Below are positions 1,356 to 64,000 of a stretch of DNA of 64,000 bases, piece after piece. The translations under genes were made by a program, and so were the position numbers. The stretch's first letter is position 1; each line of letters starts with the position of its first letter. This stretch comes from Pseudomonas brassicacearum (GTDB lineage: Bacteria; Pseudomonadota; Gammaproteobacteria; Pseudomonadales; Pseudomonadaceae), in contig NZ_CP045701.2 of the NCBI RefSeq assembly GCF_009601685.2, forward strand, positions 3,100,001 to 3,164,000, given 5' to 3'. Below the pieces are notes generated by a model, which was given only the letters and a program-made list of their open reading frames with translations, did not search any database and was not told the DNA's origin.

Positions 1356-1517
1356 GAAAGCGGGCTGCGGGGCGGCCTCTGCATGAGGCCCGTACGGGTT
1401 TGAGATACAGCAAACACGGGGGGTTCATTTATTTGGTGGCGCAGGGTGACGAGCGATAAAGGGAATGAATCACAACGGCAAGAGTCAACCCATCAGCATC
1501 CCTGAAGGATCCTTGCC

Positions 1518-2018: not shown

Positions 2019-2027
2019 AGATAGATC

Positions 2028-2549: not shown

Positions 2550-2556
2550 GTGATCT

Positions 2557-3006: not shown

Positions 3007-3036
3007 GTGCTGTTCGGCGGGCACTTTTTTCGGCCA

Positions 3037-3189
3037 GGGAGCTTGCTCCCGTTGGGTGTGTAGGAGCTGGCGAAGCCTGCGATCTTTTGATCTTTTGATC
3101 TTTTGATCTTTCGCTTGAGACTCAAGTGTCTTTGTAAAGATCGCAGCCTCGTTGCACTCGACAGCTCCTACGCAGCTCCTACGCAGCTT
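3037..3189. repeat. Composite intergenic repeat (REP/BIME-like), copy 1
   Basis: Begins with the palindrome GGGAGC-TT-GCTCCC. Then comes a unit opening GTAGGAGCTGGCGAAG, four tandem GATCTTTT steps, an AAGATCGCAGCCTCG segment, and inverted CAGCTCCTACGCAG repeats. The outer GTAGGAGCT and AGCTCCTAC arms are inverted, so the unit can fold into a long stem. A close copy lies in the opposite orientation at 4672-4800. No coding content. Confidence 0.7.
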
Positions 3190-4047
3190 CTACAGTATCG
3201 GCTTACCTCCGGTGATCCCATAGCGAGTCCCGGAGATGTAGCTGGCTTCGTCCGAGGCCAGCAGCACATAGATCGGCGCCACTTCGACTGGTTGGCCGGG
3301 GCGGCCAAGCGGGGTCTGGGAGCCGAAATTCCGTACCTCTTCCTCGGGCATGGTGGCCACGATCAGCGGCGTCCAGATCGGTCCTGGTGCCACGCTGTTC
3401 ACCCGGATGCCCTTGGGGCCGAGCATCTGCGCCAGGCCGCCGGTGAAGTTGGCGATGGCGCCCTTGGTGGTGGCATACGCCAGCAGCGTCGGCTTTGGCA
3501 TGTCGGAGTTGACCGAGCTGGTGTTGATGATCGAGCCTCCCGGCTTCATGTGCGGCACGGCGGCCTGGCAGATCCTGAACATCGCCGTGATGTTGATATC
3601 GAACGTTCGCACCCATTCCTCGTCAGGTATTTGCTCAAGACTTTCATGGGTCATCTGGAACGCGGCATTGTTGACCAGAACGTCGATATGCCCGAAGCGG
3701 GCGACGGTTTCATCGACGATTTTGCGGCACTGGTCCTTGTTTGCCAGGTCCCCGGGCAGCAACAGGCATTGCCGTCCGGCCTGTTCGACCCAGCGGGCGG
3801 TTTCCTTGGCGTCTTCATGCTCGTCCAGATAGGCAATCGCCACGTCCGCGCCTTCACGGGCAAAGGCAATGGCAACGGCGCGACCGATACCGCTGTCGGC
3901 GCCGGTGATCAGGGCGATTTTGTTCGCCAGTCGTCCGGAGCCGGTGTAGCTCTGTTCGCCGCAGTCCGGGTAGGGATCCATTTTCCGTTGGCTGCCGGGC
4001 ACCGGCTGGCTTTGCTTCGGGAAGGGTGGGAAAGGGTATTCGACCAT
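3190..4047 (-). CDS. SDR-family NAD(P)-dependent oxidoreductase, YghA/YhdF type
   Basis: 285 aa short-chain dehydrogenase. The N-terminal extension with MVEYPFPPFPKQ and MDPYPDCGE is typical of the general-stress SDR subfamily (YghA, YhdF, GsiB-linked). The cofactor loop TGADSGIG is at about residues 48-55, the structural NNA motif is VLVNNAAF, and the catalytic pair is in YATTK. I start at 4047, where CTGGAG precedes the ATG by seven bases. A longer frame to 4185 runs back over the opposite-strand neighbour and has no support. It is divergent from the VOC gene at 4240. Substrate not predictable; aldehyde detoxification or stress is likely. Confidence 0.9.
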   Translation of the reverse strand: MVEYPFPPFPKQSQPVPGSQRKMDPYPDCGEQSYTGSGRLANKIALITGADSGIGRAVAIAFAREGADVAIAYLDEHEDAKETARWVEQAGRQCLLLPGDLANKDQCRKIVDETVARFGHIDVLVNNAAFQMTHESLEQIPDEEWVRTFDINITAMFRICQAAVPHMKPGGSIINTSSVNSDMPKPTLLAYATTKGAIANFTGGLAQMLGPKGIRVNSVAPGPIWTPLIVATMPEEEVRNFGSQTPLGRPGQPVEVAPIYVLLASDEASYISGTRYGITGGKPIL

Positions 4048-4239
4048 TGTCGTTCTCCAGGCTTGATGTGGTTGCGATGGAGGGTGGACTGTGGGGTTTC
4101 GGGCAGAGTTCGGTCGGATTTTCTTGCCAGTCGATGAGCGTGATGACGGGCGTTTCGTCGGTGAATAGAGCGCTGCGACGAGCATTGGATGAAGCTGTGT
4201 TTTTCAATGAAAATACGGGTTTCGATAAGGAGCAGGACA

Positions 4240-4644
4240 ATGTTCAGCCACATACAGATCGGTGCGCGCGACCTGCCGAAAATGGTCGCTTTTTATGACG
4301 CAGTTCTCGGCTGCCTGGGGCTGGAACGTATCGAGGGTGAACACGACTCGGGGCCGCCGGGGGAGGGTTGGCAGCGCCCCGGCAAGCATTGGCCACAGGT
4401 TTTCGTCCAGTTGCCTTTCAACGGCCTGCCCGCCACCTGGGGCAATGGCATGCAAGTAAGCTTCGCCGCTGACTCCCCGCAAACCGTGCGTGCTGCCTGG
4501 GAGCAGGCGATTGCCATGGGCGGCTTCGACGAAGGCCCACCCGGCCCGAGGCCGCAGTATTGCGAAGGTTATTTCGGGGCGTATTGCCGCGATCCGGAGG
4601 GTAACAAGCTGTGCTTTGTCCATGCGCCGGATATGCATGAATAA
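4240..4644 (+). CDS. VOC-family (glyoxalase/bleomycin resistance) protein
   Basis: 134 aa, one vicinal-oxygen-chelate module pair. Residues 1-20 give the first beta-alpha element (FSHIQIGARDLPKMVAFYDAVL). The C-terminal half holds YFGAYCRDPEGNKLCFVHA, with the usual metal-ligand region and final strand. Stand-alone proteins of this kind act as lyases, dioxygenases or isomerases, or have no known activity. The ATG at 4240 has AAGGAG ten bases upstream and starts at the conserved first strand, which rules out the longer frame from 4189. Enclosed with the SDR gene between inverted repeat copies. Confidence 0.87.
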   Translation: MFSHIQIGARDLPKMVAFYDAVLGCLGLERIEGEHDSGPPGEGWQRPGKHWPQVFVQLPFNGLPATWGNGMQVSFAADSPQTVRAAWEQAIAMGGFDEGPPGPRPQYCEGYFGAYCRDPEGNKLCFVHAPDMHE

Positions 4645-4671
4645 AGCCCGAACCCACTCGATTCTGCAGGA

Positions 4672-4800
4672 GCCGTGTAGGAGCCGTGTAGGAGCTGACG
4701 AGTGCAACGAGGCTGCGATCTTTACACTGTCCATTGAGTCCAGAGCGAAAGATCAAGATCAAGATCAAAAGATCGCAGGCTTCGCCAGCTCCTACAGGCG
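4672..4800. repeat. Composite intergenic repeat (REP/BIME-like), copy 2, inverted
   Basis: Reads GTAGGAGC twice, then GACGAGTGCAACGAGGCTGC, GATCTTTACAC, a run of AAGATC steps and CGCAGGCTTCGCCAGCTCCTAC. Its reverse complement matches copy 1 at 3058-3190 over nearly the whole length, with three GATCTT-type steps instead of four. Lies between the VOC stop and the MalY stop and may double as a bidirectional transcript end. Confidence 0.7.
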
Positions 4801-4819
4801 CCGCGGGAGCAGGGGTGAA

Positions 4820-5968
4820 TTAGACCCTGGCCTTGAGGCTGCGCTCCATTCGCGCAATCCCTTCCTCCAGCAGCGCCCGCGGGCAGCCGAAGTTCAAGCG
4901 CACGAACTGACCGGCATCGTCGCCAAAATCCAGGCCGGCACTCAGCCCCACCTTGGCTTCTTTCAGAAAGAAGCCCTGTGGGTCATCCAGCCCCAACCCG
5001 GAGCAATCCAGCCAGGCCAGGTAAGTGCCCTGGGGCACGGTCATGGTGATGCCTGGCAGGCGGGTGTTCACCGCTTCGGCCAGGTAATCGCGGTTGGCTT
5101 GCAGGTACGCCTTCAAGGCCTCTAGCCACGGACCGGCTTCGCTATAGGCCGCACGGGTCGCTTCAAGGCCCAGGGCATTGACGCTGTCGACCATGCCGGC
5201 CCGGGCGCTGTTGACCCGTTCGCGCACCTTGGCGTTCTGGATAATGGCGAACGAGGTTTTCAAACCGGCGATGTTGAAGGCCTTGCTGGCGGACATCAGG
5301 GTGATGGTGCGCTCGGCAATTTCCGGGCTGAGGGAGGCGGTCGGAATGTGCACTCGGCCGTCGAAGCACAGCTCGGCATGGATTTCGTCGGAGATGATCC
5401 AGGCGTCCTGCTCCAGGCAAATGTCTGCCACGGCCTTGAGTTCCTGACGGTCAAACACCTTGCCCAACGGGTTGTGAGGATTGCTCAGCAACAGCGCGCC
5501 ACCGCCCTGCAATGCTTCGCGCAATGCAGCCAACGGTGTATGGAATTCGCCGTTGACCGAGTTGAATGGCAATTCCACTTTGTTCAACTGCCAGTGACCC
5601 GGGGCGTTGCGCAGCGGCGGGTAGTTGGGCACCTGCACCACGACATTCTGCTGGGGTTCTACCAAGGCATGCAGCGCCATGTTGAAGCCCGGTTCGACAC
5701 CCGGCAGGAACACAATCTGCTGGGGCTCGACGCGCCAGGCGTACTTGCTCCACAGGTCGGCCACGACGGCCGCACGCAGGTTGTCCTGGGCCACGCTGTA
5801 GCCCAGCATCGGATGCTCAAGGCGCTTGTGCAGCGCGTTCAAGATCACGGGGGGGGCGGGGAAGTCCATATCGGCGACCCACATCGGCAACACATCGGCC
5901 GGGTAGCGGCTCCATTTGGTACTGCCGGTGCCGTGGCGTTCCAATACCGTATCGAAATCGAAAGTCAT
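4820..5968 (-). CDS. MalY/PatB-family cystathionine beta-lyase / C-S lyase
   Basis: 382 aa fold-type I PLP enzyme. The N-terminus MTFDFDTVLERHGTGSTKW and MWVADMDFPAPP are diagnostic of the MalY/PatB branch. The PLP lysine is in SASKAFNIAGLK. SNPHNPLGK carries the substrate and phosphate contacts, and ISDEIHAEL holds the aspartate to the pyridine nitrogen. These enzymes release thiol, pyruvate and ammonia from cystathionine or cysteine conjugates. I start at 5968 because MTFDF is the family start; an in-frame ATG four codons upstream (5980) is possible. Single gene, transcribed away from nos. Confidence 0.9.
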   Translation of the reverse strand: MTFDFDTVLERHGTGSTKWSRYPADVLPMWVADMDFPAPPVILNALHKRLEHPMLGYSVAQDNLRAAVVADLWSKYAWRVEPQQIVFLPGVEPGFNMALHALVEPQQNVVVQVPNYPPLRNAPGHWQLNKVELPFNSVNGEFHTPLAALREALQGGGALLLSNPHNPLGKVFDRQELKAVADICLEQDAWIISDEIHAELCFDGRVHIPTASLSPEIAERTITLMSASKAFNIAGLKTSFAIIQNAKVRERVNSARAGMVDSVNALGLEATRAAYSEAGPWLEALKAYLQANRDYLAEAVNTRLPGITMTVPQGTYLAWLDCSGLGLDDPQGFFLKEAKVGLSAGLDFGDDAGQFVRLNFGCPRALLEEGIARMERSLKARV

Positions 5969-6502
5969 GGGGGTTCCCATCAGTCAGCGAGTTGAGATGG
6001 CGAACATCATAAAGCAAAGGACGGGGATAAAAAGGTGGCGCGTAGAAGATGAGATAAAGTCCGAGCCGCACACCCGTGTTGATATGGCTACGAAATACCT
6101 CTTGGGCTGTCTGATTTTCAGCTTTGATCGGTTGATAAATTGGGTGCGCAATGGCGTGTCAACGACACGTTTTAAATAACGTCATTTAATTCAGCTGCAC
6201 AAGATAGCGAGAGTCGTCAGCTTGAAAATATTGATTCGCTCGGTGTTTTCATACCAATCCGGCCAATAGCGTGCCCTGCGACGTTACGCCCTAAAACCTA
6301 ATGGGTACAGCTATTTAATTTAGTTAATTGATATCAAGCGACGGCTATCACGCAAGCACGAAGTTTGCCCATGCAGCAATAGAATACGTTTGCTATACCC
6401 GTGTTTAAGGCGCACTGTTTAGAGCATATATTCAATAAGTAGGCACTCGAGCATAATTGTTCTCACTGTTCATTCAGTCGAGGTCAAAAGCTCAATAAAT
6501 CG
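5969..6502. other. Intergenic region between malY-like gene and nosR
   Basis: 534 bases, AT-rich, no credible gene. It should hold the nosR promoter. I searched for the ANR/DNR consensus TTGAT-N4-ATCAA and did not find it. What is present is the compressed palindrome TTGATATCAA at 6328-6337 with no spacer. A hairpin CGTGTC-AAC-GACACG at 6155-6169 is followed by TTTTAAAT. Both are unassigned. Confidence 0.5.
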
Positions 6503-8692
6503 ATGATCATTATTAAATCCACGACGCCCAGTAAGCTGTGCCCCTTCAAATATGGGCTGCTACTCATGCTGGTGATGGTGTTCTGTGGAGGCAGTGGGGT
6601 ACATGCGAAGGAATACGGCGGGCTTGAACAGCAGCGTATAGAAACAGTTTTTCCTGAAAGCGATAACCTTTCCAAGTCCACCGGTGAGTTCAAGGTCCGT
6701 ACCATCAGTCACGGAAAAACCCTGCTCGGTTATGTGTTCCAGAGTCAGGACGTGGTGGACATCCCGGCGTATTCGGGCAAACCGATCAACATGCAGGTCA
6801 TCCTCGACACCCACGGCGTCATCCAGGATGCATACGTGCTGGAACACCATGAGCCAATTTTGCTGGTTGGCATTCCCATCGAAAAACTTCATGCCTTCGA
6901 TGCCAAGTACAAGGGCGTCAAGGCCGACCGCAGGGTGGTCGTGGGTCACTCCAGTGATCCCGAGGCGGTGACGGTCGATGGGATTGCCGGGGCGACGGTT
7001 ACCGTGATGGTGGTCAACGAGATCATCATGCGCGCGGCACGCAAAGTGGCCGTATCGCTCAAGTTGATCGAGGATAACAGTGGTGTTACGCAGAAGCCTG
7101 CCACTGTGCGCGAAGACTTTTTCGAGCCCGCCACCTGGGAGCAGATGACCGGCAATGGCGCCATTCGCCGTCTCAACCTGACCCGTGGCCAAGTCGACGC
7201 GGCCTTCAAGGGAAGCGAGGCTGAGGGGTTCGACAATGCCACTGCCGAGCAGGTTGATGAGACCTTTATCGAACTGTATACAGCCGATTTGAATCCGCCG
7301 GCCATTGGTCGCAACCTGCTGGGCGACAATCAATATCGTTTCCTGATGCAAGACCTCAAGCCAGGTGAGCAAGCCATCGCTGTATTAGGTCGCGGCCTGT
7401 ATTCCTACAAAGGTTCAGGTTATGTGCGCGGGGGGATTTTTGATCGGGTGCAATTGCGTCAGTTTGGCAACGTCATCAGCTTTCGCGATATGGACCACCA
7501 GCGTCTTTCCGATGTATTTGCCAAGGGCATGCCTGAGTTCAATGAAATGTCTATTTTCATTGTGCGCGAACCCGCTCGGTTCGATCCGGGAGCGCCTTGG
7601 TCCCTGGAATTGTTGGTACGACGCCAGACCGGCGCGGTCAGCGGCACATTCAGCAGTTTCGATTTGTCCTACCAACTGCCTGAGCAGTACCTCTTGCGCC
7701 CGCCGCCCACCGCTCAAGAGTTGGCTGCCATCAAGGTTGCCAACAGGCCGACGTGGGTCAATATCTGGTACCAGAAAGCTTTTCAGATCGGCATTCTGTG
7801 TACAGCCCTGACTGTGCTGATGGTGATTCTGTTCCTGCAGGACACTTTCACCCGATACCCACGCTTTCTCCATTGGCTGCGTCGGGGTTACCTGGTGTTC
7901 ACCGTTGTGTTCATCGGCTGGTATGCCCTCGGGCAGATTTCGGTGGTCAATGTCCTGACCTTCGCCCATGCCTTGTTCGAGAACTTCCGTTGGGAACTGT
8001 TTCTCACCGACCCGATCGTGTTCATTCTCTGGACCTTTACCGCCGCCAGCATCCTGTTGTGGGGGCGAGGGGTGTTCTGCGGTTGGTTGTGTCCCTTCGG
8101 TGCGTTGCAGGAGTTGATCAACGAAGCCGCGCGCAAGCTCAAGATTCCACAATATGAGCTGCCCTTTGCGCTGCACGAGCGCTTGTGGGCGGTGAAGTAC
8201 ATCATCCTGTTGGCGCTATTCGGCATCTCTCTCGAGTCGATGACCACCGCCGAGCAATTTGCCGAAGTGGAACCCTTCAAGACCGCCATTACGCTGAAAT
8301 TCGATCGCCAGTGGTGGTTCGTGGTCTACGCCGTAGCGTTGCTGGTCATCAACATTTTTACCCGCAAGGTCTATTGCCGCTACGTCTGCCCATTGGGCGC
8401 CGCACTGGCCATCCCCAGCAAGCTGCGCCTGTTCGATTGGCTCAAGCGCCGTAAGGAATGTGGCGCGCCCTGTCAGCTGTGCGCCAAGGAATGCGAAATC
8501 CAGGCAATCCACCCGGATGGCCATATCAACGGCAACGAGTGTCACTACTGCCTCGATTGCCAGATGACTTACCACAACGAAAACAAATGTCCGCCGCTGG
8601 TGCTCAAGAACAAGCGCAAGACGCGGGATAAACCGGCGCCCGTGCCAGAGCACGCCGAGTTGATTCCGGTGGTGCAAGTGTTCAAGCCCTGA
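6503..8692 (+). CDS. nosR: NosR, membrane flavo-iron-sulfur protein required for N2O reductase expression/activity
   Basis: 729 aa, usual NosR length. Order: signal-like helix (about 15-32), periplasmic FMN-binding domain (about 60-190) with the flavinylation motif GIAGATVT, five to six membrane helices from about residue 430, and a cytoplasmic polyferredoxin end. Cys motifs are [23 protein letters not shown] and a ferredoxin stretch [12 protein letters not shown]...CHYCLDCQ. NosR is needed for nosZ transcription and sustains electron flow to NosZ. It begins the nos cluster; nosZ starts 76 bases after its stop. The start has only a distant GAGG, so translation may be weak, but no better start exists. 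Confidence 0.96.
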
Positions 8693-8768
8693 CCCGTCCT
8701 TGCCAAGCAAGGGCACAAGAACCTATTGCCTGACCTTATTGATATCTGCCTCCAATGGAGCAAGCCCC

Positions 8769-10688
8769 GTGAGCGATAAAAAGCCGAAAAAAGATCAAGA
8801 ATCGGTCAATGACGCAGGTCTTAACCGACGCGGTTTCCTCGGTGCCTCAGCCCTGACCGGCGTTGCGCTGGCAGGCAGCACTGCCCTTGGCAGCGTGCTC
8901 TTCACCCGCGAATCCTGGGCGGCAGCGGCCAAGGATGCGCAGTCGAAAATTCACGTGGCACCGGGCGAGCTGGACCAGTACTACGGCTTCTGGAGTGGGG
9001 GGCATCAGGGCGAAGTGCGGATCATGGGCGTTCCGTCGATGCGTGAGTTGTTACGCATACCGGTGTTCAACGTCGACTCCGCCACCGGTTGGGGGCTGAC
9101 CAACGAAAGCAAGCGGATACTGGGTGATAGTGCAAGGTTTCAGAATGGCGACTGCCACCATCCGCACTTGTCCATGACTGATGGCAAGTACGACGGCAAG
9201 TACCTGTTCATCAATGACAAGGCCAACTCCCGGGTCGCGCGCATTCGCCTGGACATCATGAAGTGCGACAAGATGCTCACGGTGCCCAACGTGCAAGCCA
9301 TCCATGGCCTGCGCCTGCAAAAGGTGCCGCATACCCAGTACGTGTTCGCCAACGCCGAGTTCATCATTCCACACCCCAATGACGGCAGCACTTTCGACCT
9401 GCAGGATAAGAACAGCTACACCATGTTCAACGCCATCGACGCCGAGAAGATGGAAATGGCCTTCCAGGTGATCGTCGACGGCAACCTGGACAATACCGAC
9501 GCCGACTACACCGGCAAATACGCTGCCAGCACCTGCTACAACTCCGAGAAGGCCTATGACCTGGGCGGCATGATGCGCAACGAGCGCGACTGGGTGGTGG
9601 TGTTCAACATCCCGCGCATCGAAGCGGCGATCAAGGCCGGTAAATTCATCACCTTGGGCGATGCCAAGTCGCCAGTTGTCGACGGTCGCAAAAGCGACGG
9701 CAAGGACAGCGAATTCACCCGCTATATCCCGGTTCCGAAGAATCCTCACGGCATCAACATGTCGCCCGATGGGAAGTATTTCATTGCCGCCGGCAAACTC
9801 TCGCCCACCTGCACCATCATCGCCACCGCCAAGCTTGACGATCTGTTCAACGACAAACTCAAAGACCCTCGGGATGTGGTAGTCGGTGAGCCTGAACTGG
9901 GCCTGGGGCCGTTGCACACCACCTACGATGGCCGGGGTAATGCTTACACCACGTTGTTCATCGACAGCCAAGTGGTGAAGTGGAATGTGGAAGAGGCGAT
10001 CCGCGCCTACAAGGGTGAGAAGGTCAACTACATCAAGCAGAAACTCGATGTGCAGTACCAACCCGGGCACAACCATGCATCGCTGACCGAAACCAGCGAG
10101 GCCGACGGCCAGTGGCTGGTGGTGCTCAGCAAGTTTTCCAAGGATCGCTTCCTGTCGACCGGTCCGCTGCACCCGGAAAACGACCAGTTGATCGATATTT
10201 CCGGCGACGAGATGAAGCTGGTGCACGACGGCCCGGCGTTCGCCGAACCGCACGACTGCGTCATGGCCCGTCGAGACCAGATCAGGACCAAGAAAATCTG
10301 GGACCGTAACGATCCGTTTTTTGCCGAAACCGTGGCGATCGCCGCCAAGGACGGGATCAAGCTTGAGAGCGACAACAAAGTCATCCATGACGGCAAGAAA
10401 GTGCGGGTGTACATGACCTCGATGGCGCCGGTCTACGGGGTCACTGAATTCACCGTCAAGCAAGGGGATGAGGTGACGGTGACCATCACCAACATCGATA
10501 AGGTGGAGGACGTTAGCCACGGGTTCGTCATGACCAATCACGGTGTGAGCATGGAGATCAGCCCCCAGCAGACCTCGTCCATCACTTTCATCGCCGACAA
10601 GCCTGGCTTGCACTGGTACTACTGCAGCTGGTTCTGCCATGCGCTGCACATGGAAATGGTCGGCCGGATGTTGGTCGAGCCGGTTTGA
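8769..10688 (+). CDS. nosZ: NosZ, nitrous-oxide reductase, clade I (Tat-exported)
   Basis: 639 aa. Reduces N2O to N2 in the periplasm with the CuZ and CuA centres. A twin-arginine signal RRGFLGAS lies at residues 20-27, marking clade I. CuZ ligand regions are visible: [45 protein letters not shown] and [12 protein letters not shown]. The CuA cupredoxin motif [12 protein letters not shown] is at 619-630. I start at the GTG at 8769: ATGGAG lies nine bases upstream and MSDKKPKK matches the family. A longer frame to 8700 has no ribosome site. One oddity is TET where the P. stutzeri enzyme, as I recall it, has CET after HAS. Confidence 0.97.
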
Positions 10689-10722
10689 ACAGTGCCTCAG
10701 GGCCGCGAAGAAGGTAAACGCC

Positions 10723-12021
10723 ATGCCCAGGGCTTCGCTCAGTGATCCACGCCACAGCATGGCACTTTTGCTGTTGGTGCTGGTGTCGACACTCGCCCAG
10801 GCGTCGCCGCGCCCCATCACCGAACTACCCCTGCAAACCAGCGGTGATCAGCGCTGGATTCTGCCGGCGGGCGACTACTCGGGGCAGTTCAGCGTCGATC
10901 AATCGATGCAGATCGAATGCGCGGAAGGTGCGGTGATCAACGCCCAGGGGCAGGGCAACGCGCTGTTCATCAGCGCACCGGATGTGCGGATCGAGGGGTG
11001 CACATTGCTCGACTGGGGACGTGACATGACGGCAATGAACTCAGCGGTGTTCATCGGTCCCAAGGCCCGGGGTGCGGTGATACGTCATAACCGCATGAAG
11101 GGCCCCGGTTTCGGCATCTGGGTGGATAGCACTCATGATGTCAGCCTGATTGACAATGACATCGAAGGCGACCCGGGCATTCGCTCCCAGGATCGCGGCA
11201 ATGGGATTCATCTGTATGCCGTGCAGGGTGCGCGGGTCATTGGTAATCACGTGCGACTGACCCGCGACGGTATTTACATCGACACCTCGAACGGCAACTT
11301 GCTGCAAGACAATACCCTGGAAGACCTGCGCTATGGCGTGCACTACATGTATGCCAACGACAACCAGTTGCTGGGCAACACTACCCGCCGCACGCGCACC
11401 GGTTATGCCTTGATGCAGAGCCGCAAGCTGACGGTGATTGGCAATCGCTCCGAGCAGGACGAAGGCTATGGCATCCTCATGAACTACATCACCTATTCCG
11501 AACTGCGCGACAACGTCATCAGCGACGTGCGCAGCGGCTCCGCCGACGGCGGTATGGTCAGCGGTGCCGAGGGCAAGGCGCTGTTCATCTACAACTCGCT
11601 GTTCAATGTCATCGAACACAACCATTTCGAGCGCAGCGCCGTGGGTATTCACCTCACTGCTGGCTCCGAAGACAACCGTATCGCCGACAACGCCTTCGTC
11701 GACAACCAGCAGCAGGTCAAATACGTTGCCAGCCGCACGCAGGAGTGGTCGGCCGACAGTCACGGCAATTACTGGAGTGATTACCTGGGTTGGGATCGCA
11801 ATGACGATGGGATTGGCGACGTGATCTACGAGCCCAACGACAATGTTGACCGCCTGCTCTGGCTGTACCCGCAGGTCCGTCTGTTGATGAATAGCCCGAG
11901 CATCCAATTACTGCGCTGGGTGCAGCAAAGTTTCCCGGTGACGAAGTCGCCAGGGGTCAAGGACAGCTATCCGTTGATGAATCTTCCGACCATGCCCCAG
12001 ACACAGCAGCCGAGCTTATGA
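10723..12021 (+). CDS. nosD: NosD, periplasmic copper-site maturation protein
   Basis: 432 aa. A signal peptide (about residues 7-27, ending AQASP) is followed by a right-handed beta-helix of CASH/NosD repeats; many N-D and G-N-x-I turns are visible ([32 protein letters not shown]). NosD works with NosF and NosY to assemble the CuZ centre of NosZ. The start at 10723 has GAAGAAGG nine bases upstream. The longer frame overlaps the nosZ end and adds a Cys/Trp-rich stretch not seen in NosD. Its stop overlaps the nosF ATG in ATGA, implying translational coupling. Confidence 0.95.
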
Positions 12022-12941
12022 ACGCAGTGGACATTGAAGGGGTCAGCCAGCGCTACGGCAGCATGACCGTGTTGCGGGACTTGACCCTGAGCCTGGGTGA
12101 GGGGGAGGTGCTGGGTTTGTTCGGCCACAATGGAGCGGGCAAGACTACGGTGATGAAGCTGATCCTGGGACTGCTCAAGGCCAGTGCCGGTCAGGTGCAT
12201 GTACTCGGTTGCCGACCCGCACAAGCCGAGGTGCGTCGCCAACTGGGGTACCTGCCGGAAAACGTGACGTTCTACCCGCAACTCAGTGGTCGCGAGACCC
12301 TGCGCTATTTCGCCCGCCTCAAGGGCGCCGCGTTGAGACAAGTGGACGAGCTACTGGAGCAGGTCGGTCTCGCCGACGCCGCAGACCGTCGGGTGAAAAC
12401 CTACTCCAAAGGCATGCGCCAGCGTCTGGGGTTGGCCCAGGCGGTTCTCGGTGAACCTCGCCTGTTGCTGTTGGACGAACCCACGGTGGGTCTTGACCCT
12501 ATCGCCACCCAAGAACTTTACCTGTTGATCGACCGTCTGCGTCAGCGGGGCGCCAGCATCATCCTCTGTTCCCATGTGTTGGCGGGGGTCGAAGCGCATA
12601 TCAATCGTGCGGCCATCCTGGCCAATGGCTGCTTGCGGGCGATCGGCAGTCTGGCCAGCCTGCGTGAGGAGGCTGACTTGCCGGCGCGTATTCGCGTCAG
12701 TGGGTTAGCCCAACGCGAGCAGTGGCTGCAGCGGTGGAAGGCCGCTGGACACATCGCTAGCGCGATGGAGGACAACGGAGTCGAGGTGATGGCGGTCAAC
12801 GGTCACAAAGTCGATCTGCTGCGCCAGTTGTTTCACGAGGACCCACCGCAGGATATCGACATCCAACAACCGTCCCTTGAGGACCTTTACGGCTATTACA
12901 TGAGTCATGCAAGCGTCGCCACAGAAGGCACTCATTCATGA
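12018..12941 (+). CDS. nosF: NosF, ABC transporter ATPase for NosZ maturation
   Basis: 307 aa. Walker A is GHNGAGKTT (about 36-44), the signature is [13 protein letters not shown], Walker B is [13 protein letters not shown], and the switch His is in [10 protein letters not shown]. The last 80 residues form the NosF-type C-terminal extension. It energises the NosY membrane partner in sulfur/copper site assembly. ATGA overlaps exist with nosD upstream and nosY downstream, so the three are tightly coupled. Confidence 0.95.
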
Positions 12942-13768
12942 CGCAGATTTGGAGTATCGCCGCCAAGGAGTTCAGCGACGGCCTGCGTAACCGCTGGCTG
13001 CTGGCAATCAGTCTGTTGTTCGCCGTTCTGGCAGTGGGGATCGCCTGGCTTGGGGCGGCGGCATCCGGGCAAGTGGGTTTCACCTCGATTCCGGCAACCA
13101 TTGCCAGCCTCGCCAGCCTGGCGACATTCCTGATGCCACTGATTGCGCTACTGCTGGCCTACGATGCCATTGTCGGGGAGGAGGAGGGCGGCACGCTGAT
13201 GTTACTGCTGACCTACCCGCTGGGTCGTGGCCAAATCCTGTTGGGCAAGTTTGTCGGTCATGGCCTGATTCTGGCCTTGGCCACGTTGATTGGATTTGGT
13301 TGCGCCGCCGTGGCCATCGCCTTGCTGGTCGACGACGTTGAATTGGGGCTGCTGCTCTGGGCGTTCGGTCGCTTCATGGTGTCTTCCACGCTGCTGGGTT
13401 GGGTCTTCCTGGCGCTGGCTTATGTCTTGAGCAGCAAGGCCAGCGAGAAATCCAGCGCCGCCGGGATGGCGTTGGGCGTGTGGTTTCTCTTCGTATTGGT
13501 ATTCGACCTGGCGCTGTTGGCGTTGCTGGTGCTCAGCAAGGGCCGGTTCAACCCGGACCTCTTACCGTGGCTACTGCTGCTCAACCCCACCGATATCTAT
13601 CGCCTGATCAATCTCTCTGGTTTCGAGGGCAGCGGTAATGCCATCGGCCTCATGGCATTGAGCAGTGATTTACCGGTGTCGGCTTCGCTGCTCTGGCTCT
13701 GCCTGCTGCTCTGGGTCGGCGCTTTGCTGTTGTTGGCTTATTGGATGTTTCGCCGTCGGCTGACTTGA
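12938..13768 (+). CDS. nosY: NosY, ABC transporter membrane subunit
   Basis: 276 aa with six hydrophobic helices (about 19-37, 53-74, 108-133, 141-166, 176-205 and 245-268), the ABC-2 permease topology. The soluble loop [21 protein letters not shown] and [12 protein letters not shown] are conserved NosY landmarks. With NosF it forms the transporter that feeds NosD and NosZ. Starts inside the nosF stop (ATGA). Confidence 0.95.
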
Positions 13769-56399: not shown

Positions 56400-56906
56400 A
56401 TCCAAAACAGAAAATATCCTCAAGTTTAGGAGCAGTTTCCCAGGCATAGCAAACTCAACCCAAATACACATCGGTTTCCAGTTAACTTTCGCCGGATTCC
56501 GGTAAAGAGGGTAGCGGTCACAGTTTAGGTACAGGTGACAAATTGGAAAGAAGCGTCATAAACACACCGTTTAACAAGTGGGCGATGTCATATGTTCATA
56601 AGTCGATCAAGGGCCCGAGATTGCTGACTCAATGGTCTCTAAATCAGCGCGACTGTTCATCGATTAGTGTTCATAGACCTAGCTTTCCCCCGGTCATTAG
56701 TCTCGTCGCCCCGACCTTTATCCGTCCATCCAATGATGGTGGAGGTATGTTCGACGGCGGTACGGGGTGCGCTTGCGTGGTGTTTCGTGACCGAATATGT
56801 CATATAGCCGCTATTGGATTTTGTTGCAGCGCCACCGCTGCATATTATTAGCGGTCATTCGCCTGCTCGGCGGGACACGGAAGGCCATTGCATGAGATCT
56901 GGGTAG
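56400..56906. other. Junction region between TerC gene and the YobI-type island
   Basis: 507 bases. A 102-codon frame at 56543-56851 has no ribosome site and atypical composition, and I do not accept it as a gene. No tRNA, integrase or direct att repeat is evident, but base and codon use change here, so it may be the left edge of an acquired island. Confidence 0.4.
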
Positions 56907-59900
56907 ATGCTGGGAGCTATCAAAAATCGTCTAGGCCTGGCGTGGGAAGCGCTTGTGGTTGGAGGGAGAGCTGCGTGGAGGGTGCTGTCCACACGGCATC
57001 AGAGAGGCAACGTTGATCCTTTCTTTGAGCCGTTGACCCCCGTCATTGTCACGGACGGCCGATCGGCCCGGTATGAGCGCGAGTTGCTACATGCCCTGGA
57101 AAACTCCGATGTTCTGAACATCGCGCTCACAGGTAGCTATGGCGCGGGTAAGAGCAGCGTGCTGAAGACATTCTTCAGCAACCATCCACAGTTCAACCAC
57201 ACCTATGTGTCCCTCGCGACCTTCAGCAAACCCACCTTGGGTTTGACTCCTCAGCCTAGTGGCCAACCTCCCGACCCTGACTCCGCACCTGAGGGCCCGG
57301 CTGTTACCGGGGGCGAGCACTCACCTGGGGATGTCGATCTGGTCAATCGCATTGAAGAGACCATCGTCCAGCAACTGCTCTACGCGGTGCCCGCAGCGAA
57401 AGTGCCCAAGACTCGACTGAAACGGATAGCCCAGGCCTCAAACTTCAGTATTAGCATGCGCACCCTGGGGTTCACTTTGCTTGCCGTCTGCGCCTTGAGG
57501 CTCTATGTACCCAAGCTTGCGATGATAAAAACCGTGTCGCTTGAATGGCTGATCAAGGGCTTAATGGTTCTTCCCGAGTCTGCAGCGCTGGCTGGAGTGG
57601 CGATTGGTGCAATCTATCTGTTGTACGCCGGGTTGAGGTTCATGTCCCTGTTTACCATCGATGGGCTGACCCTCAAGGGAGGCAAGCTTGAAGCGACTCA
57701 CCATGGCTCGGTGCTTCATAAGAACGTCGATGAAATCATCTACTGCTTCGAGCGCAGTGATATCAACGTGGTGGTCATTGAAGACCTGGATCGCTTCGAC
57801 ATCCAGGACATCTTCTTCAGGCTGCGAGAGATCAACTTCATCATCCAGCGATCACCCCAGGTCAAGCGTCCTGTCCATTTCGTCTACGCCATCCGTGATG
57901 AGCTGTTCACGGTCACGGACAAGACAAAATTCTTCGACCTCATTATCCCCATCATCCCAGTGATCAACTCCGAGAACTCCAGGGAAAAGCTGGTCGAGCT
58001 CATGAAGGCCCGCCAGGTGGCCGGCAAACCGCTCGATGATGGCTTGAATCTCAAACTCATCGAGACGGTGTGCTACTACATCGACGAAATGAGGCTGATC
58101 AAGAACATCGTCAACGAGTATGACGTCTACGCGAACGTACTGGCTAAGGACGGTCTGGAGCTGGATCCCAACAAGCTGTTTGCGATGGTTGCGATCCGAA
58201 ATCTGCACCCCAATGCCTATGCGGACTTGGTCAAGCGGCGGGGCACGATCTATGGCGTCATTGATGGCTACGCGAAGTGGGTAAAAGCCGAAACCGACTT
58301 ACTCGAAACGGCAGCTCAAGCGCTAGAGGATCAGCGTGCGGCACGTGAAGACGAGGTGGCCGATAGCGTGGAGCATCTACGTTTGTCCGTCTGGTTTGAG
58401 ATTTTGAAACTTGGGAACAAACCCACTGCAAACCACGTGCGGCTGGATGGCGGGTCTACGGTCACGCTACTGGACTTTGTATCGGATCCTGTATTCGCCC
58501 AGGTAGTAGCATGTCGAAGCGTGCAACCAATTGTGATTTCACACTGGCAAGATAACGGCCAAGCTGTCCAGCCTAAAAAGGCTTTGCAAGAGGCACGTTA
58601 CGATGAGCGCCTGCAACGCTTTCAGACCTCGCTCGATGAGTTGGATGAGCAACTTGAAACGAATCGAAGCAAAGTGCTACGCCTCAAAACGGCAGGTTTT
58701 CGGCAGATCGTTTTCCTGGGGTACGGCGCAGAGCTTGCCAAACGCCTAAAAGGGCTAGAGCTCATAACGTTCCTCGTTCACCGCGGTTTCCTCGACACGG
58801 ATTACGTCGATTACCTCGGATATTTCTACGAGGGATCACTCACCCAATCGGATAAAAACCTCATCATGGGGCTTGTCAGGGGGGAGGAGTACGACGTGAC
58901 CACTCCAATACATAATCCGGAGCTTGTGATCAGGAAGCTGGATCTGGATTCGGTAGATGGCGGGCGCGGTATTATGGTCGATCTTATTCATGAGCTTTTG
59001 CAGTCGCGCAAGGATGAGATGGTTGCCAGAAGGGACAAACTTCGCTTGATCCTCCGAAGCGGTCATGATTACAAGGAGCGTTTCGCTGAGGCGGTAGCAC
59101 CGATTGTTCCTGGGACGTACGGTTCTGCGCTTATGAGAGCAATGTATGGCGCAGATCGCGATCTCATTCCGTTACTGCTCAGCCATGATCGATTCAAAAC
59201 ATCCACCTTGCGGCAGCAGTTCCTCATTGCTCTTCTGGATGCGCTGACGCCCAAGGAGATGCAGACCCTCGACGATAAGTCTGGCCGGTTGAGGAAGACT
59301 ATCAATGAGCTGCGTGATGCTTCGGTTCTTGCAGCGAAGCTTGCGAGTAGTCAAAACGGATGGAGGTGGGTCAGGGAGCTGCCAGCGCAATTCTCCAACC
59401 TCGATTCGAGTGCCTCGTCTGGAGATTTGCGGCAAATGGTGGAGTGGGGTTGTTTGGCCCTTAACCTCAAAATGCTGCAATTGCTCTGCCAGACACTGGA
59501 TCCGGGAAATCAGAGCGTTAGGGTAACGTACCATCGGCTTAGCAAGCTGGAAGTCACTGGCATGGACACCCTGATCGAGGAAAACCCGGACGGTTTCGTG
59601 GCTCAGCTCGTGAGCCAGGATGGATCGCTCGAAGAGACACCGGAATCGCTCGTGGCCTTGTTCGGTCTTTGCCAGAGTGAAGCCTACACACTACAGGTAT
59701 TGCTCGAACAGACGACCTGCAGTGTGACTGACCTTGACGCGGTACCGACCTTGTTATGGGCGAAAATGATGATGGCGGGACGTGTTCGGCCTGTGGGTAA
59801 TGCAGCTTGGACGTACTTCAATCGGGCTCTGATAGCTGACAAAGAATCCGCAGATTTCGTCGATTTGGGCGAGTCGGCGTTGGATAATTTCGCGGAGTTT

Positions 59901-60683
59901 CTCAAGCACAACGCTCAAGAGTTGGCTGAAGAGTTGTGGCAGGACGCCAGTCGCAACGCTGGCTTGCAGACTTTCCTCGTTCGCACGCCGCAAGTCGAGA
60001 ATGCAACCCTACGAACGCTTTTCTCGAAGGTGGTGTTGAGCCCAAGCGTTGTCATGGACACCGCGGCGCCTCGCAATCGGTGGGCGATGTTCGCCAATGG
60101 TGACATGGTCGAGTACAGGGAGGAAATTCGGGCCTTCATTGCCGATCACGCTTTCTCTTATCTAGGGGCTTACCTCATCCGCCGGTGGGGCGTCGCCCGT
60201 GAACAGATGGACATGTCGGCGTTGCCGGTGTCGTTGGCCCTTGAACTGACCAACGCACAGGTGTGCTCGACTGCTGAGAGCATCAAGATATGGTCGGGCA
60301 TTCCTTACGACGCCTATGACACGTGCGACGGTGCCGTTGAAGCATTGGCTAGAGCGTGTGATCACGCGGCCCGAGATGGATTGCGGTTCCCGGAGGCCTA
60401 CCTCCCGACGCTGCTGAAGTTGCTCCCGGACGGGGCGCTCTCTAGAGAGCAAAGGATCAACATGCTGATCCATGCTCTCTCGATGGGCTGCAGTTGGCCA
60501 GAAACGGCTGGAGTATTGCCGCTCGTGGGCGAGGAGTATCAGGCGTTACTCAACAAACGGCGCGTGAACTTGCCGGCTCATGATATAGATCGCCGGCTGA
60601 TTGATGCCCTCGCTGCAAGAAGTTTCGTGGGTGCTGTGAAATCTGAGGCCAAGCGCATCGTGGTCTGGAGCAAGCGTAATTGA
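56907..60683 (+). CDS. YobI-like membrane-anchored P-loop NTPase, candidate defence gene
   Basis: 1258 aa. Walker A GSYGAGKSS is at residues 76-84 and Walker B VVVIEDLDRFD at 288-298, as in the KAP/YobI class. Two membrane segments (about 186-204 and 226-242) lie between them in the KAP manner. The remaining 900 residues are mostly helical with no known catalytic motif. KAP-like NTPases occur in phage defence and in membrane complexes. Rare codons (CTA, ATA, AGA) are more common than in flanking genes, suggesting transfer. The start has a poor ribosome site. A partner gene follows after 278 bases. Confidence 0.85.
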   Translation: MLGAIKNRLGLAWEALVVGGRAAWRVLSTRHQRGNVDPFFEPLTPVIVTDGRSARYERELLHALENSDVLNIALTGSYGAGKSSVLKTFFSNHPQFNHTYVSLATFSKPTLGLTPQPSGQPPDPDSAPEGPAVTGGEHSPGDVDLVNRIEETIVQQLLYAVPAAKVPKTRLKRIAQASNFSISMRTLGFTLLAVCALRLYVPKLAMIKTVSLEWLIKGLMVLPESAALAGVAIGAIYLLYAGLRFMSLFTIDGLTLKGGKLEATHHGSVLHKNVDEIIYCFERSDINVVVIEDLDRFDIQDIFFRLREINFIIQRSPQVKRPVHFVYAIRDELFTVTDKTKFFDLIIPIIPVINSENSREKLVELMKARQVAGKPLDDGLNLKLIETVCYYIDEMRLIKNIVNEYDVYANVLAKDGLELDPNKLFAMVAIRNLHPNAYADLVKRRGTIYGVIDGYAKWVKAETDLLETAAQALEDQRAAREDEVADSVEHLRLSVWFEILKLGNKPTANHVRLDGGSTVTLLDFVSDPVFAQVVACRSVQPIVISHWQDNGQAVQPKKALQEARYDERLQRFQTSLDELDEQLETNRSKVLRLKTAGFRQIVFLGYGAELAKRLKGLELITFLVHRGFLDTDYVDYLGYFYEGSLTQSDKNLIMGLVRGEEYDVTTPIHNPELVIRKLDLDSVDGGRGIMVDLIHELLQSRKDEMVARRDKLRLILRSGHDYKERFAEAVAPIVPGTYGSALMRAMYGADRDLIPLLLSHDRFKTSTLRQQFLIALLDALTPKEMQTLDDKSGRLRKTINELRDASVLAAKLASSQNGWRWVRELPAQFSNLDSSASSGDLRQMVEWGCLALNLKMLQLLCQTLDPGNQSVRVTYHRLSKLEVTGMDTLIEENPDGFVAQLVSQDGSLEETPESLVALFGLCQSEAYTLQVLLEQTTCSVTDLDAVPTLLWAKMMMAGRVRPVGNAAWTYFNRALIADKESADFVDLGESALDNFAEFLKHNAQELAEELWQDASRNAGLQTFLVRTPQVENATLRTLFSKVVLSPSVVMDTAAPRNRWAMFANGDMVEYREEIRAFIADHAFSYLGAYLIRRWGVAREQMDMSALPVSLALELTNAQVCSTAESIKIWSGIPYDAYDTCDGAVEALARACDHAARDGLRFPEAYLPTLLKLLPDGALSREQRINMLIHALSMGCSWPETAGVLPLVGEEYQALLNKRRVNLPAHDIDRRLIDALAARSFVGAVKSEAKRIVVWSKRN

Positions 60684-60961
60684 GTAGCCATTGGGTGGCT
60701 ATTCCGTCCACCTTCACATAAGTCCGGAACTCGGCCGGTCTATGAGGCTTGGAGTGTCTACGAAACTAGGGGCGGTTCAAACAAGCTTGGAGCTGCTAGG
60801 GGTCGCCTCGTCGACTGCAGATCCACTTGCCCATGTTCTCCAGCCGTGGAGGTGAGGCGTCGATAAGTGGTAATGGCATTGGCCGGTGGAGTAGAGTGGC
60901 CTTTTGCCGCAGGACCGTGGGCGATTCGGCCACCTGCTACAGCACTGAAAGGAGACTGGCG

Positions 60962-63900
60962 TTGAAATGGATTACCGCTCTTCAGTTGGAGCAATGGGCT
61001 GACACACTTCAATCTCGCGTCCAGATACCTGGTCTAGTAGCAGACTTGATCTGGGCGACCTCGCCAAAAATTAGAAGAATCAGATTTCCTCAAGGAGACA
61101 AGGGCCAGGTGCGTGGATACGACGGATACCTGGACGCGGACTCTACCTCACCTTTTGTTCCTGACGGACGTTCGATCTGGGAGTTTGGCACCAGTGGGGT
61201 CGGGAAGAGCAAGGCGAACACCGACTATGACAAGCGTACCGCTGAGGTGAGTGCTGATGAAAGGGCAGACACTACCTTGGTTTTGGTTACGCCACGGACA
61301 TGGAACGATACGAGCGAAAAAGTTGAGGATTGGCTAGCAGGAAAAAATGCGAGCGGAGACTGGAAGGGCATCGTCTATTTGGAGAGTACCCTGCTGGAAG
61401 ATTGGCTCTCGAAATGCCCAGCCGTTGCTTCCCGCTGGGCCAAGTTTGAGCTTGAAATCGCTCCTCCGGCCGGAATACTCAGCACAGAGGAGTTTTGGCA
61501 GTCTTTCTCGACCCGTTTTGAGCCAGCGCTTGTTGAAGACGTCTTATTGGCTGGTCGTGAAAAGCAGGCGGAAGAGCTTCTGCAGAAGCTAAGACAAGAG
61601 GGTGGGCGGCTGGCATATTCTGCCGATACCACCGATGAGGTGATCGCTTTCACAGTGGCTGCCATACGCAGTGCGCCGGAACCAGTGCGGCAGTACCTAG
61701 AGTCTCGCACGCTGATTGTTGATACGGCAGATGCCGCAAATGCTCTCTTGAGCAAATCAGGTCTCATTTACTTACCTAGAAACACTGCCTGTGAGTGTGT
61801 GGGGCAAATGCTGTTGCGAGGGCCAACCGTGGTGAGCGCCGGCGCCGATGACAAGACCCATGGGCACATCGAGCTGCGCCGTCCGTCCAGCAGAGAACTC
61901 GGAATCGCAATCGCGAAGATGGGGATGACCGAGGATCAAGGGTACGAAGCGGCACGGACATGTGGACGGAGTCTGGCAGTGTTAGCTAGGCAGTACCCCA
62001 GTGGCACTGCAGTGAAGCCTAAATGGCTCGATGACACGAAACCACTCATCCCTGTCATGCTTGCCGGCGCGTGGGCATCTGATGCAGAGGAAGATCAGTC
62101 CATTATTTCGTCGCTCAGTCAGCAAAACTATGAGGATGCGGAAGATGAGCTTCGCAAATACCTAGTCATGCCAGATTCACCTATCGAAAACGTTGGCAAT
62201 TTATGGGCGACTAGAGCTCCGGTGGATGCATTCCTCTACCTCGCTCCGTATGTCGGCCGCAGGCACCTTCAGCTTTTCAAGGATGCGATTACCACCGTTT
62301 TTGCCGCCGCTGTGCGATCGCATAAACCGCCAAGTCCAGATGAGCCGTTCGTCCGTCATGCTCAGCGTGATACGGCCCACAGCGAGCACCTGCGAAATGG
62401 TCTGATGACTACGTTGCTGCACATGGCGGTGCTGCACGCTCCGGCTAAATTCACAGTCCTCGGCGGAAGTCCCAAGACCTTCGTTGATGACCTCGTCCGT
62501 TCATTGCCGGAGCTGTCATCTGACCATCGGCTTATGGCGAGTTTGGGTCAGGATTTAGCGTTGCTTGCGGAAGCATCCCCTAATTTTTTTCTCGAGGCCC
62601 TTGAGCGTCAGCTTGAGGGCGCATCGCCTTCCATCCGCCCGATCTTCGATGAATATCCAGGGATGTTAACCCCTGTTACCTACCACTGCGGCCTACTCTG
62701 GGCTCTGGAGGTGTTGGCTTGGATTCCTGAAACATTTGATCGAGCCGTGCGTTGCCTAGCGGAGCTTGCTGCCATTGATCCTGGCGGGAAGATGAGCAAC
62801 CGGCCGATTAACAGCCTGCGAGCCATTTTTCTCTCATGGATACCCAGCGCTGGAGTCAACACAACGCGGCGGCTAGCTGCTTTGCAGGCAGTCGTGAAAG
62901 ACGTACCCACGATCGCCTGGCCCTTGCTCGAGACACTTCTTCCACGATCTGGCGACAACAGTTCCGCCACTGAAAAGCCAAAATTTCGGGAGTATGAGGA
63001 CGGCGGCGGCGAAACCCTGACTTACGGTTTGGTATGGGAAAGCGAAGGCAAGATTGTCGAGCTCGCGATCATAGAAGCGGGCCATCGTGATGAACGGTGG
63101 AAATCTATTATCGACTCGCTTGAGATGCTTCAAGATTCCGCTTTTGAAGCAGTCGTGAACGGTCTTGATAGCGCTCTGAACTCCGCACCAAAGGAGCCCC
63201 ATACACAGATCTGGAAAACTCTGAATCGGGAGGTGAAGCGTCACCAGAAATTCTCTAGATTCGACTGGGCTATCCCTGAGGAGCGACTGGGGCAACTTGC
63301 AAGCTTGGTGGACAGGTATGAGCCCACAACGTTGTTTGAACACTACAGCTGGCTTTTCGATGATTGGATGCCACCCGTGGAGGGGCAGGCCGATGAGGAT
63401 GTCGACTCAATCAAACTAGTTGAGGATGCTCGCCTGAATGCTTTGCGAGCTATTCGAGAGGCGCACGGCGTGCAAGGGCTCCTTGACCTGATGGCGCGCG
63501 TCAAAATTCCGCGACTTGTTGGCTATGCCTGCCGAGGGCTAGAGTTACCTTACGACGACCTCGTGGAGCTATTCGAAAAGATCGTCACAAGCTCTGTAGC
63601 AGAGCTTGAGCTTATTGCCGGAGCAGTGTTGGCTGATGGCTTTAGCCGTCTGGGCCAGCCTTGGGAAGCAGCTGGCCGATCCTCTGCTCAAAGCTCTGCC
63701 TTGAGCTCGTCTCGTTTAGCGTTGGTACTCGAGTCGCTGCCAGAAAGCGCACGAGCCTGGTCGTATGTTGCATCGTTCGGAGAAGAGGTTGAGAACTCCT
63801 ACTGGGCGCAGAAAACCGCTCATCAGGTAGAAGGTAACGTTCGGGATCTATCGTTTGCTATAGAAAAATATAGATGTGCACGCAGGCCGGCCGCAGCTCT

Positions 63901-64000
63901 GAGTGCGGCCTCGCGGCGTCTTTCTGACGTCCCTACTGCTGATCTTGTTTCGCTGCTAAAGAACAGCATCACTGAGCAGAATTCTAAGGGGCCTGCCCAG
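60962..64000 (+). CDS. Large protein of unknown function, partner of the YobI-type NTPase (partial)
   Basis: Open for 1013 codons to the window end, with no stop, so 3'-truncated here. Starts at TTG 60962 with AAAGGAG seven bases ahead; a nearby ATG is out of frame. Residues 1-160 have a conserved-looking order: IRFPQGD (40-46), GYDGYLD (52-58), FVPDGRSIWEFGT (65-77), KANTDYDKRT (84-93), TLVLVTPRTW (105-114). A D/E plus K arrangement in strands suggests a PD-(D/E)xK-like fold, but I cannot prove that. GTSGVGKS at 76-83 looks like Walker A, within the same strand-turn. The C-terminal 700 residues are helical, STAND-like. Probably works with the preceding NTPase. Confidence 0.8.
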   Translation, partial: MKWITALQLEQWADTLQSRVQIPGLVADLIWATSPKIRRIRFPQGDKGQVRGYDGYLDADSTSPFVPDGRSIWEFGTSGVGKSKANTDYDKRTAEVSADERADTTLVLVTPRTWNDTSEKVEDWLAGKNASGDWKGIVYLESTLLEDWLSKCPAVASRWAKFELEIAPPAGILSTEEFWQSFSTRFEPALVEDVLLAGREKQAEELLQKLRQEGGRLAYSADTTDEVIAFTVAAIRSAPEPVRQYLESRTLIVDTADAANALLSKSGLIYLPRNTACECVGQMLLRGPTVVSAGADDKTHGHIELRRPSSRELGIAIAKMGMTEDQGYEAARTCGRSLAVLARQYPSGTAVKPKWLDDTKPLIPVMLAGAWASDAEEDQSIISSLSQQNYEDAEDELRKYLVMPDSPIENVGNLWATRAPVDAFLYLAPYVGRRHLQLFKDAITTVFAAAVRSHKPPSPDEPFVRHAQRDTAHSEHLRNGLMTTLLHMAVLHAPAKFTVLGGSPKTFVDDLVRSLPELSSDHRLMASLGQDLALLAEASPNFFLEALERQLEGASPSIRPIFDEYPGMLTPVTYHCGLLWALEVLAWIPETFDRAVRCLAELAAIDPGGKMSNRPINSLRAIFLSWIPSAGVNTTRRLAALQAVVKDVPTIAWPLLETLLPRSGDNSSATEKPKFREYEDGGGETLTYGLVWESEGKIVELAIIEAGHRDERWKSIIDSLEMLQDSAFEAVVNGLDSALNSAPKEPHTQIWKTLNREVKRHQKFSRFDWAIPEERLGQLASLVDRYEPTTLFEHYSWLFDDWMPPVEGQADEDVDSIKLVEDARLNALRAIREAHGVQGLLDLMARVKIPRLVGYACRGLELPYDDLVELFEKIVTSSVAELELIAGAVLADGFSRLGQPWEAAGRSSAQSSALSSSRLALVLESLPESARAWSYVASFGEEVENSYWAQKTAHQVEGNVRDLSFAIEKYRCARRPAAALSAASRRLSDVPTADLVSLLKNSITEQNSKGPAQ

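Follow-up and report, generated by a model that had tools for sequence, protein, structure and literature searches.

The question raised by this locus is whether two large genes on the same strand of a Pseudomonas chromosome form one antiphage system and, if not, what the second of them does. The stretch analysed, 64,000 nucleotides in length and called the window below, covers positions 3100001-3164000 of contig C1 of genome G000, a single-contig genome of 6.58 Mb which belongs to Pseudomonas in the sense of the genus group used here. A sequence-only reading of the window had joined both genes into a two-gene system, in which a membrane nucleoside triphosphatase (NTPase, gene 1) triggers or reports for a large partner (gene 2). 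The present analysis leads to another view. Gene 2 is a member of a large unnamed family with an immune-receptor-like layout, and it is probably a stand-alone, immune-receptor-like antiphage nuclease switched without nucleotide, placed beside an independent Tmn-like gene 1. The features on which this view depends are as follows (window coordinates).

56907..60683, + strand: gene 1, YobI-type P-loop NTPase, Tmn-like, 1258 residues, ATG start (PF20693, PADLOC Tmn, motifs, hydropathy).
56570..60779, no strand assigned: extent of the gene-1 cassette (blastn against locus L136, 97.0% identity, similarity stopping on both sides).
60861..60961, + strand: gene-2 leader with the Shine-Dalgarno sequence AAAGGAG (alignment with relatives).
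60962..64000, continuing to 64720, + strand: gene 2, nuclease, STAND-like module without a P-loop, and helical repeats (frame, homologues).

The identity first proposed for gene 1, a YobI/KAP-type membrane NTPase with two membrane segments, was confirmed. The protein matches PF20693 YobI-ATPase (E 3.2e-107) and the PADLOC model of Tmn (E 1e-79), and both its Walker A (GSYGAGKS at residue 76) and its Walker B (VVVIEDLD at residue 288) are intact, with hydrophobic segments at residues 189-207 and 215-249 lying between them. Gene 1 is Tmn-like, that is, it resembles a known defence system. The KAP/YobI NTPase and the two membrane segments are shared with Tmn as described in PMC11846954, where the mechanism of that system is referred to as unexplored; the match to the Tmn model, however, spans only residues 34-946 of the 1258. 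Gene 1 may act alone as a Tmn-type system.

The arrangement of the two genes seems at first to favour a joint system, in which the membrane NTPase would sense or report while gene 2 cuts. Both are intact frames on the same strand, 278 bp apart, and neither promoter-like nor terminator-like sites were found in 60600-61000, so that separate transcription of gene 2 is no more than a possibility. In addition, a YobI gene sharing 42% identity with gene 1 adjoins gene 2 in divergent orientation in Pseudomonas fluorescens PfAR1 (locus L008; YobI gene at 5398-9195, - strand; gene 2 at 10001-13759, + strand). This is, however, the only one of 43 other gene-2 loci in which a tblastn search with gene 1 found such a neighbour, and the genome of L008 is the only one with PF20693 above cut-off among the 41 gene-2-carrying genomes searched (those of L030 and L037 lying outside this set). 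The 43 loci come from a genome collection from which close records to the window's own genome may be absent; their titles name organisms which we take to belong to Pseudomonadota, Bacteroidota, Bacillota, Acidobacteriota, Planctomycetota, Actinomycetota and other phyla. Within the genus, 348 genomes sampled from a larger group were surveyed, with at most two candidates scored per genome. Gene 2 is sporadic there, being present in 16 genomes (in several of them partial or split), and PF20693 is above cut-off in 26. The two occur together in only two genomes, the window's own and G164, where 2.5 Mb separate them, and they are adjacent in the former alone. With the window's own genome set aside, co-occurrence is seen once against 1.08 expected, which is the level of chance.

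The DNA around the two genes also speaks against a joint system. The match of 97.0% between the gene-1 stretch and L136, a locus of genome G279, ends abruptly on both sides, and the stretch 56570-60779 is for this reason regarded as a gene-1 cassette. G279 is not among the 16 genus genomes with a gene-2 match. The cassette without gene 2 was found at 97% and 85% DNA identity, the encoded protein being 95.5% identical in G279 and 84.6% in G009. The leader of gene 2 (60861-60961), for its part, retains 50-63% identity in six relatives that lack gene 1 and 36% in L008, compared with 28-51% for 60684-60750 in the same seven relatives; blastn similarity of gene 2 to L010 and L137, both without gene 1, starts at 60925. 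Since the gene-1 match ends at 60779 and the similarity of the gene-2 leader is seen from 60861, the junction of two cassettes would lie at about 60780-60860. No conserved partner gene of gene 2 was seen among the best 25 clusters of open reading frames (ORFs) of at least 90 residues from the 43 loci, all of them present in three or more loci, a set which a shorter partner would escape. By eye, these clusters represent gene 2 itself, shadow frames, sensor-kinase-like genes (5 loci), resolvases (4), ABC-type genes (4) and frames of three Caulobacter-group contigs, two of which (L026 and L038) resemble one same stretch. Gene 1 and gene 2 are most likely two independent single-gene cassettes lying side by side, and a joint system must be considered highly improbable. 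Co-occurrence of the two families elsewhere, which had been named as a check on the pairing, is absent but for L008; the proposal that the membrane NTPase triggers or reports for its partner is unsupported for the same reason.

What, then, is gene 2? The frame starts with TTG at 60962 behind AAAGGAG (another in-frame TTG is present at 60827) and comprises 1013 codons within the window. In the whole genome it stops at window position 64720, giving a complete protein of 1252 residues. A protein search returned at least 347 proteins at E <= 1e-3 (7999 candidates scored), on which ground gene 2 is regarded as a real gene and not a chance frame; 120 homologues among the matches listed are 46-94% identical to it over 85-100% of the query. 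The second large frame with a ribosome site, as first described, therefore holds, and past the window end it continues into a full-length family member and not into an unrelated fragment. There is no Pfam match over the cut-off (DUF6808 matches lie under it), the precomputed Pfam fields are empty for the 120 homologues among the matches listed, and the 1012 residues within the window have neither an NCBIfam match nor a PDB match by phmmer. Matches to JetC are weak (best E 0.0055). A PDB profile search found nothing convincing with residues 1-640 (best E 0.063) and designed helical proteins with the tail (best E 0.00023). No literature describing the family was found, most subscription journals and bioRxiv lying outside the search. 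Relatives of gene 2 occur on 23 plasmid records, and 11 of these are predicted to be conjugative; in phages there is one partial match covering 36% of the query. One locus (L041:10001-10774) carries an abridged form in which a match to residues 1-204 is fused to one to residues 1194-1252, so that only the nuclease and the extreme C-terminus are represented; either a natural deletion or a fault of assembly might account for it.

The domains of the gene-2 protein were delineated from a predicted model and from an alignment of 33 rows, made up of 29 of the 43 loci and four listed proteins including the window's own. Two rows repeat loci, so that 31 are distinct by the hhalign count; loci in which the copy is split, partial or closely similar to another are omitted, and the rows come from several phyla.

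60962..61456, + strand: PD-(D/E)xK-fold nuclease domain, residues 1-165 (predicted model, conserved residues).
61187-61210, within the nuclease domain: chance Walker A look-alike GTSGVGKS, just before K84.
61469..62005, + strand: AAA+/STAND-like module without Walker A, residues 170-348 (model, Foldseek).
61619..61639, + strand: three-residue turn and invariant E226, residues 220-226, where PD-lambda-4_A has GLSGVGKT (model, alignments).
62009..64000, continuing to 64720, + strand: helical (HEAT/ARM-like) repeat tail, residue 350 onwards (models).

Both the nuclease-like N-terminus and the long helical tail ascribed to the partner by the sequence-only reading are seen in the predicted models. 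The nuclease domain is modelled with helices at residues 17-33 and 82-95 and strands at 36-41, 56-60, 69-75 and 104-109, that is, with the alpha-beta-beta-beta-alpha-beta core of the PD-(D/E)xK superfamily, and its fold matches MspJI and FokI. Residues D54, E74, G76 and K84 are invariant in all 33 rows, and D88 and R92 in 32. A looser pattern, D...WE.G...K, is kept in 118 of 120 gene-2-type homologues and in 118 of 121 homologues of the helix-turn-helix (HTH) type treated below. As regards the D...(D/E)xK motif, D54 and E74 are in place, G76 occupies the usual position of the lysine, and K84 of the next helix would stand in for the usual catalytic lysine in the predicted nuclease. The string GTSGVGKS at residues 76-83 was considered as a Walker A and rejected, as it lies inside the nuclease domain and its K82 is not conserved; similar look-alikes within the nuclease motif occur in 25 of 120 gene-2-type and 3 of 121 HTH-type homologues.

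The module that follows keeps an AAA+/STAND-like fold and precedes a tail of about 900 residues in HEAT-like repeats. At its P-loop site the model has a turn of only three residues, which links strand 216-220 to helix 224-236, and a Walker A is present there in none of the 33 rows. A pattern written for the altered stretch is found in 98 of 120 gene-2-type and 113 of 121 HTH-type homologues. Where one PD-lambda-4_A protein has the Walker B VVVDNC, gene 2 reads LIYLPR. Walker-A-like strings elsewhere in the sequence (12 of 120 gene-2-type and 100 of 121 HTH-type homologues, the latter at about residue 876, in the repeat tail, in the six examples shown) were not accepted as a P-loop and are taken as chance or as a residue of the clade. 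Nucleotide binding of the usual kind would therefore be closed to the module. It might still bind one non-canonically and thus be an ordinary STAND switch: the fold is kept, and the invariance of E226 and F230 in all 33 rows indicates that the site is under constraint. Such binding seems improbable, though, in view of the short loop, the missing Walker A and the LIYLPR that replaces Walker B.

Among known defence proteins, PD-lambda-4_A is one of the closest to gene 2. The PADLOC model of this protein matches 8 of the 33 gene-2 members (best E 8.8e-11), the window's own protein not being among them; of seven members displayed in detail, four have such a match, in each case within residues 528-711. 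Homologues of PD-lambda-4_A were found in 7 of 299 phylum genomes, and three sequences entered the first profile comparison. With these, hhalign aligned the gene-2 family to PD-lambda-4_A over 690 columns (residues 21-795) with a probability of 97.2 and an E of 4.7e-11; the score of 105.4 compares with at most 30.1 in 20 column shuffles, 20.2 for the reversed alignment and 21.0 for a YobI/KAP alignment. Addition of a fourth sequence (from L028, 2496 bits with the PADLOC model) raised the probability to 98.0 (E 1.7e-13). BLASTP gave a best E of 0.21, which is not significant. Gene 2 is distantly homologous to PD-lambda-4_A, with a collinear nuclease, STAND-like module and first part of the helical tail. 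The two differ, however, in that Walker A is present in all four PD-lambda-4_A sequences and in none of the 33 gene-2 rows, that the pattern DGGID..(F)QxK of three of the four PD-lambda-4_A sequences is missing from gene 2, and that no B component was seen beside gene 2, the next two genes on its downstream side matching no PADLOC family at E 0.1. Tests for the NTPase motif and for the B component were both negative, and for this reason gene 2 was not filed under PD-lambda-4: it is a homologue of the A protein standing outside that system. In a listing in PMC10952713, PD-lambda-4 stands under P-loop NTPase, and in the main text of PMC9519451 the term lambda-4 does not occur. At one locus two distant relatives lie side by side: in L028 of Intestinirhabdus alba (1444-5808, - strand, and 6175-9920) a gene for PD-lambda-4_A, accompanied by a partial B match, is divergent from a relative of gene 2 that is split into two frames.

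In structure, the best Foldseek match of the gene-2 model is Avs4 (E 8.7e-5, probability 0.99). Avs4 has the domain order nuclease-STAND-repeat, which is also that of the model, and a working NTPase, whose motif gene 2 lacks; the global superposition is poor as well (root-mean-square deviation 17.4, TM 0.23). Since no Avs family is found among the four PADLOC families matched by the 33 members at E 0.01, the likeness is one of fold only. Dsr families are not among the PADLOC matches of the members either. With DSR1 and DSR2 gene 2 shares the composition of an effector head and a long helical sensor in a single gene, but the DSR head is SIR2, whereas that of gene 2 has a nuclease fold, and the STAND-like module is kept in gene 2.

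The resemblance to restriction enzymes deserves consideration at this point. MspJI, matched by the nuclease fold along with FokI, is modification-dependent, and HEAT-type solenoids can bind DNA; gene 2 could on these grounds be a restriction-type enzyme whose solenoid reads the DNA directly, modified or damaged DNA for instance, in place of sensing a phage protein, the STAND-like part being a mere scaffold. This is rather unlikely, as the match to MspJI is limited to residues 1-165 and the best structural match is to an Avs4 structure with a bound phage portal protein. A role in the stabilisation of plasmids or other elements, or in regulation, rather than in defence, would be suggested by the relatives of gene 2 that carry an N-terminal HigA-type HTH domain. 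Such a domain is present in L031 and L045 and, by eye, in L054, L055 and L057, and the HTH-fused matches on plasmids (H2-H7, H10, H12, H13 and H16) are named helix-turn-helix regulator or HigA antitoxin. Relatives of this kind are common: when the L057 protein (1480-5601, - strand) served as query, at least 3188 of the 8000 candidates scored reached E <= 1e-3, some of them possibly without HTH; by our own count PF01381 is present in 109 of 120 L057 homologues among the matches listed, and the named proteins among those listed are mostly called HigA family antitoxin or antidote. With HigA antitoxins these proteins share the N-terminal HTH_3 domain, but in L057 this domain makes up only about 90 of 1374 residues, the remainder having the architecture of gene 2. 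An N-terminal HTH_3 is likewise found in L095, a homologue of PD-lambda-4_A. A stabilising or regulatory role is quite improbable, given that the nuclease pattern is kept in groups with and without HTH, that no conserved partner emerged from the 43 loci among the best 25 clusters of ORFs of at least 90 residues, and that the neighbours are rich in defence genes.

The last point rests on a comparison of neighbours and controls. The 113 ORFs beside gene 2 matched 73 PADLOC families at E <= 1e-12, as against 5 families for 104 control ORFs; as PADLOC families overlap, these figures count families and not systems. Neighbours were taken from the 31 of 43 loci with at least 5 kb on both sides (ORFs of 150-1499 residues with a midpoint within 3 kb), and controls from 26 full 10-kb stretches (40 asked, 29 returned) at a fixed place in gene-2-carrying genomes. 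The neighbour and control genomes overlap and are not paired one to one, one ORF of 2281 residues was left out, and all ORFs were chosen by length alone, some being spurious. The best 25 of the 73 families were displayed. Neighbours that can be named include Shango SngC (L021), a Dsr1-like gene (L019), PDC-S25 (L044) and, in L028, PD-lambda-4_A with a B match over 141 of 303 model positions; the Tmn among the families is the YobI gene of L008. Of ten neighbours picked by hand, five were without a PADLOC match at 1e-12.

The window's own locus fits this pattern. Upstream lies a TerC-family gene; downstream of gene 2 follow two small frames, transposase genes (IS66-like by eye), Gabija GajA and GajB, a KAP NTPase and an ApeA-like HEPN gene, beyond which genes resembling an arginine deiminase cluster were recognised by eye. 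The features downstream of the window are as follows.

L002:8321-8713: frame of 130 residues, overlapping the gene-2 stop (ATGA).
L002:8872-9477: frame of 201 residues with one hydrophobic segment.
L002:14986-19166, - strand, and L003:3-5034, + strand: Gabija GajA and GajB (PADLOC E 0 and 1.6e-266), KAP NTPase and ApeA-like HEPN gene.

The location of gene 1 and gene 2 is a defence island, and the antiphage setting initially assumed for them is corroborated by Gabija and the ApeA-like gene in the same island. A three-gene operon including the 130-residue frame was considered and rejected, as this frame has no tblastn match in the 43 loci (E 1e-3) and no PADLOC match at E 0.1; its best Pfam hit, DUF4885 (E 0.31), is under the Pfam cut-off. 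The 201-residue frame has no match by tblastn in the 43 loci (E 1e-3), by PADLOC (E 0.1) or in Pfam.

How might a stand-alone gene 2 work? Avs proteins in general are described in PMC12931631 as consisting of an effector, a STAND switch and sensor repeats, and by analogy with them a single protein acting as both sensor and DNA-cutting effector is proposed for gene 2. Avs5, according to the same source, requires its Walker A residues, whereas gene 2 has none at the site. As ordinary nucleotide binding by the module is not expected, switching free of ATP is proposed. The repeat tail would bind a phage component, and binding would release or multimerise the protein without ATP; the nuclease heads could then meet and cut DNA, whereby the phage would be stopped or the infected cell killed. 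A ligand-driven, nucleotide-free rearrangement seems the most economical reading of the switch, and both the mechanism and the defence function of gene 2 should be understood as suggested by the domain layout, the neighbours and the analogy.

The new part is gene 2, as a nuclease-STAND protein of the immune-receptor kind without the NTPase motif; gene 1 resembles the known Tmn. In bacteria, plants and animals alike, STAND and NLR receptors are regarded as nucleotide switches. It is conceivable, if at present somewhat short of an even chance, that a whole lineage of bacterial STAND-type immune nucleases has ceased to bind nucleotides and relies for its switching solely on the ligand, which would rearrange solenoid and scaffold. 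One clade of it would have added a HigA-type HTH, maybe for self-repression, with many of its members filed as antitoxins. If true, a conserved P-loop-free family of the same layout would mean that the STAND layout can work without nucleotide. The analysis also suggests what many proteins currently labelled hypothetical or HigA antitoxin are likely to do, and it corrects a tempting but false pairing within a defence island.

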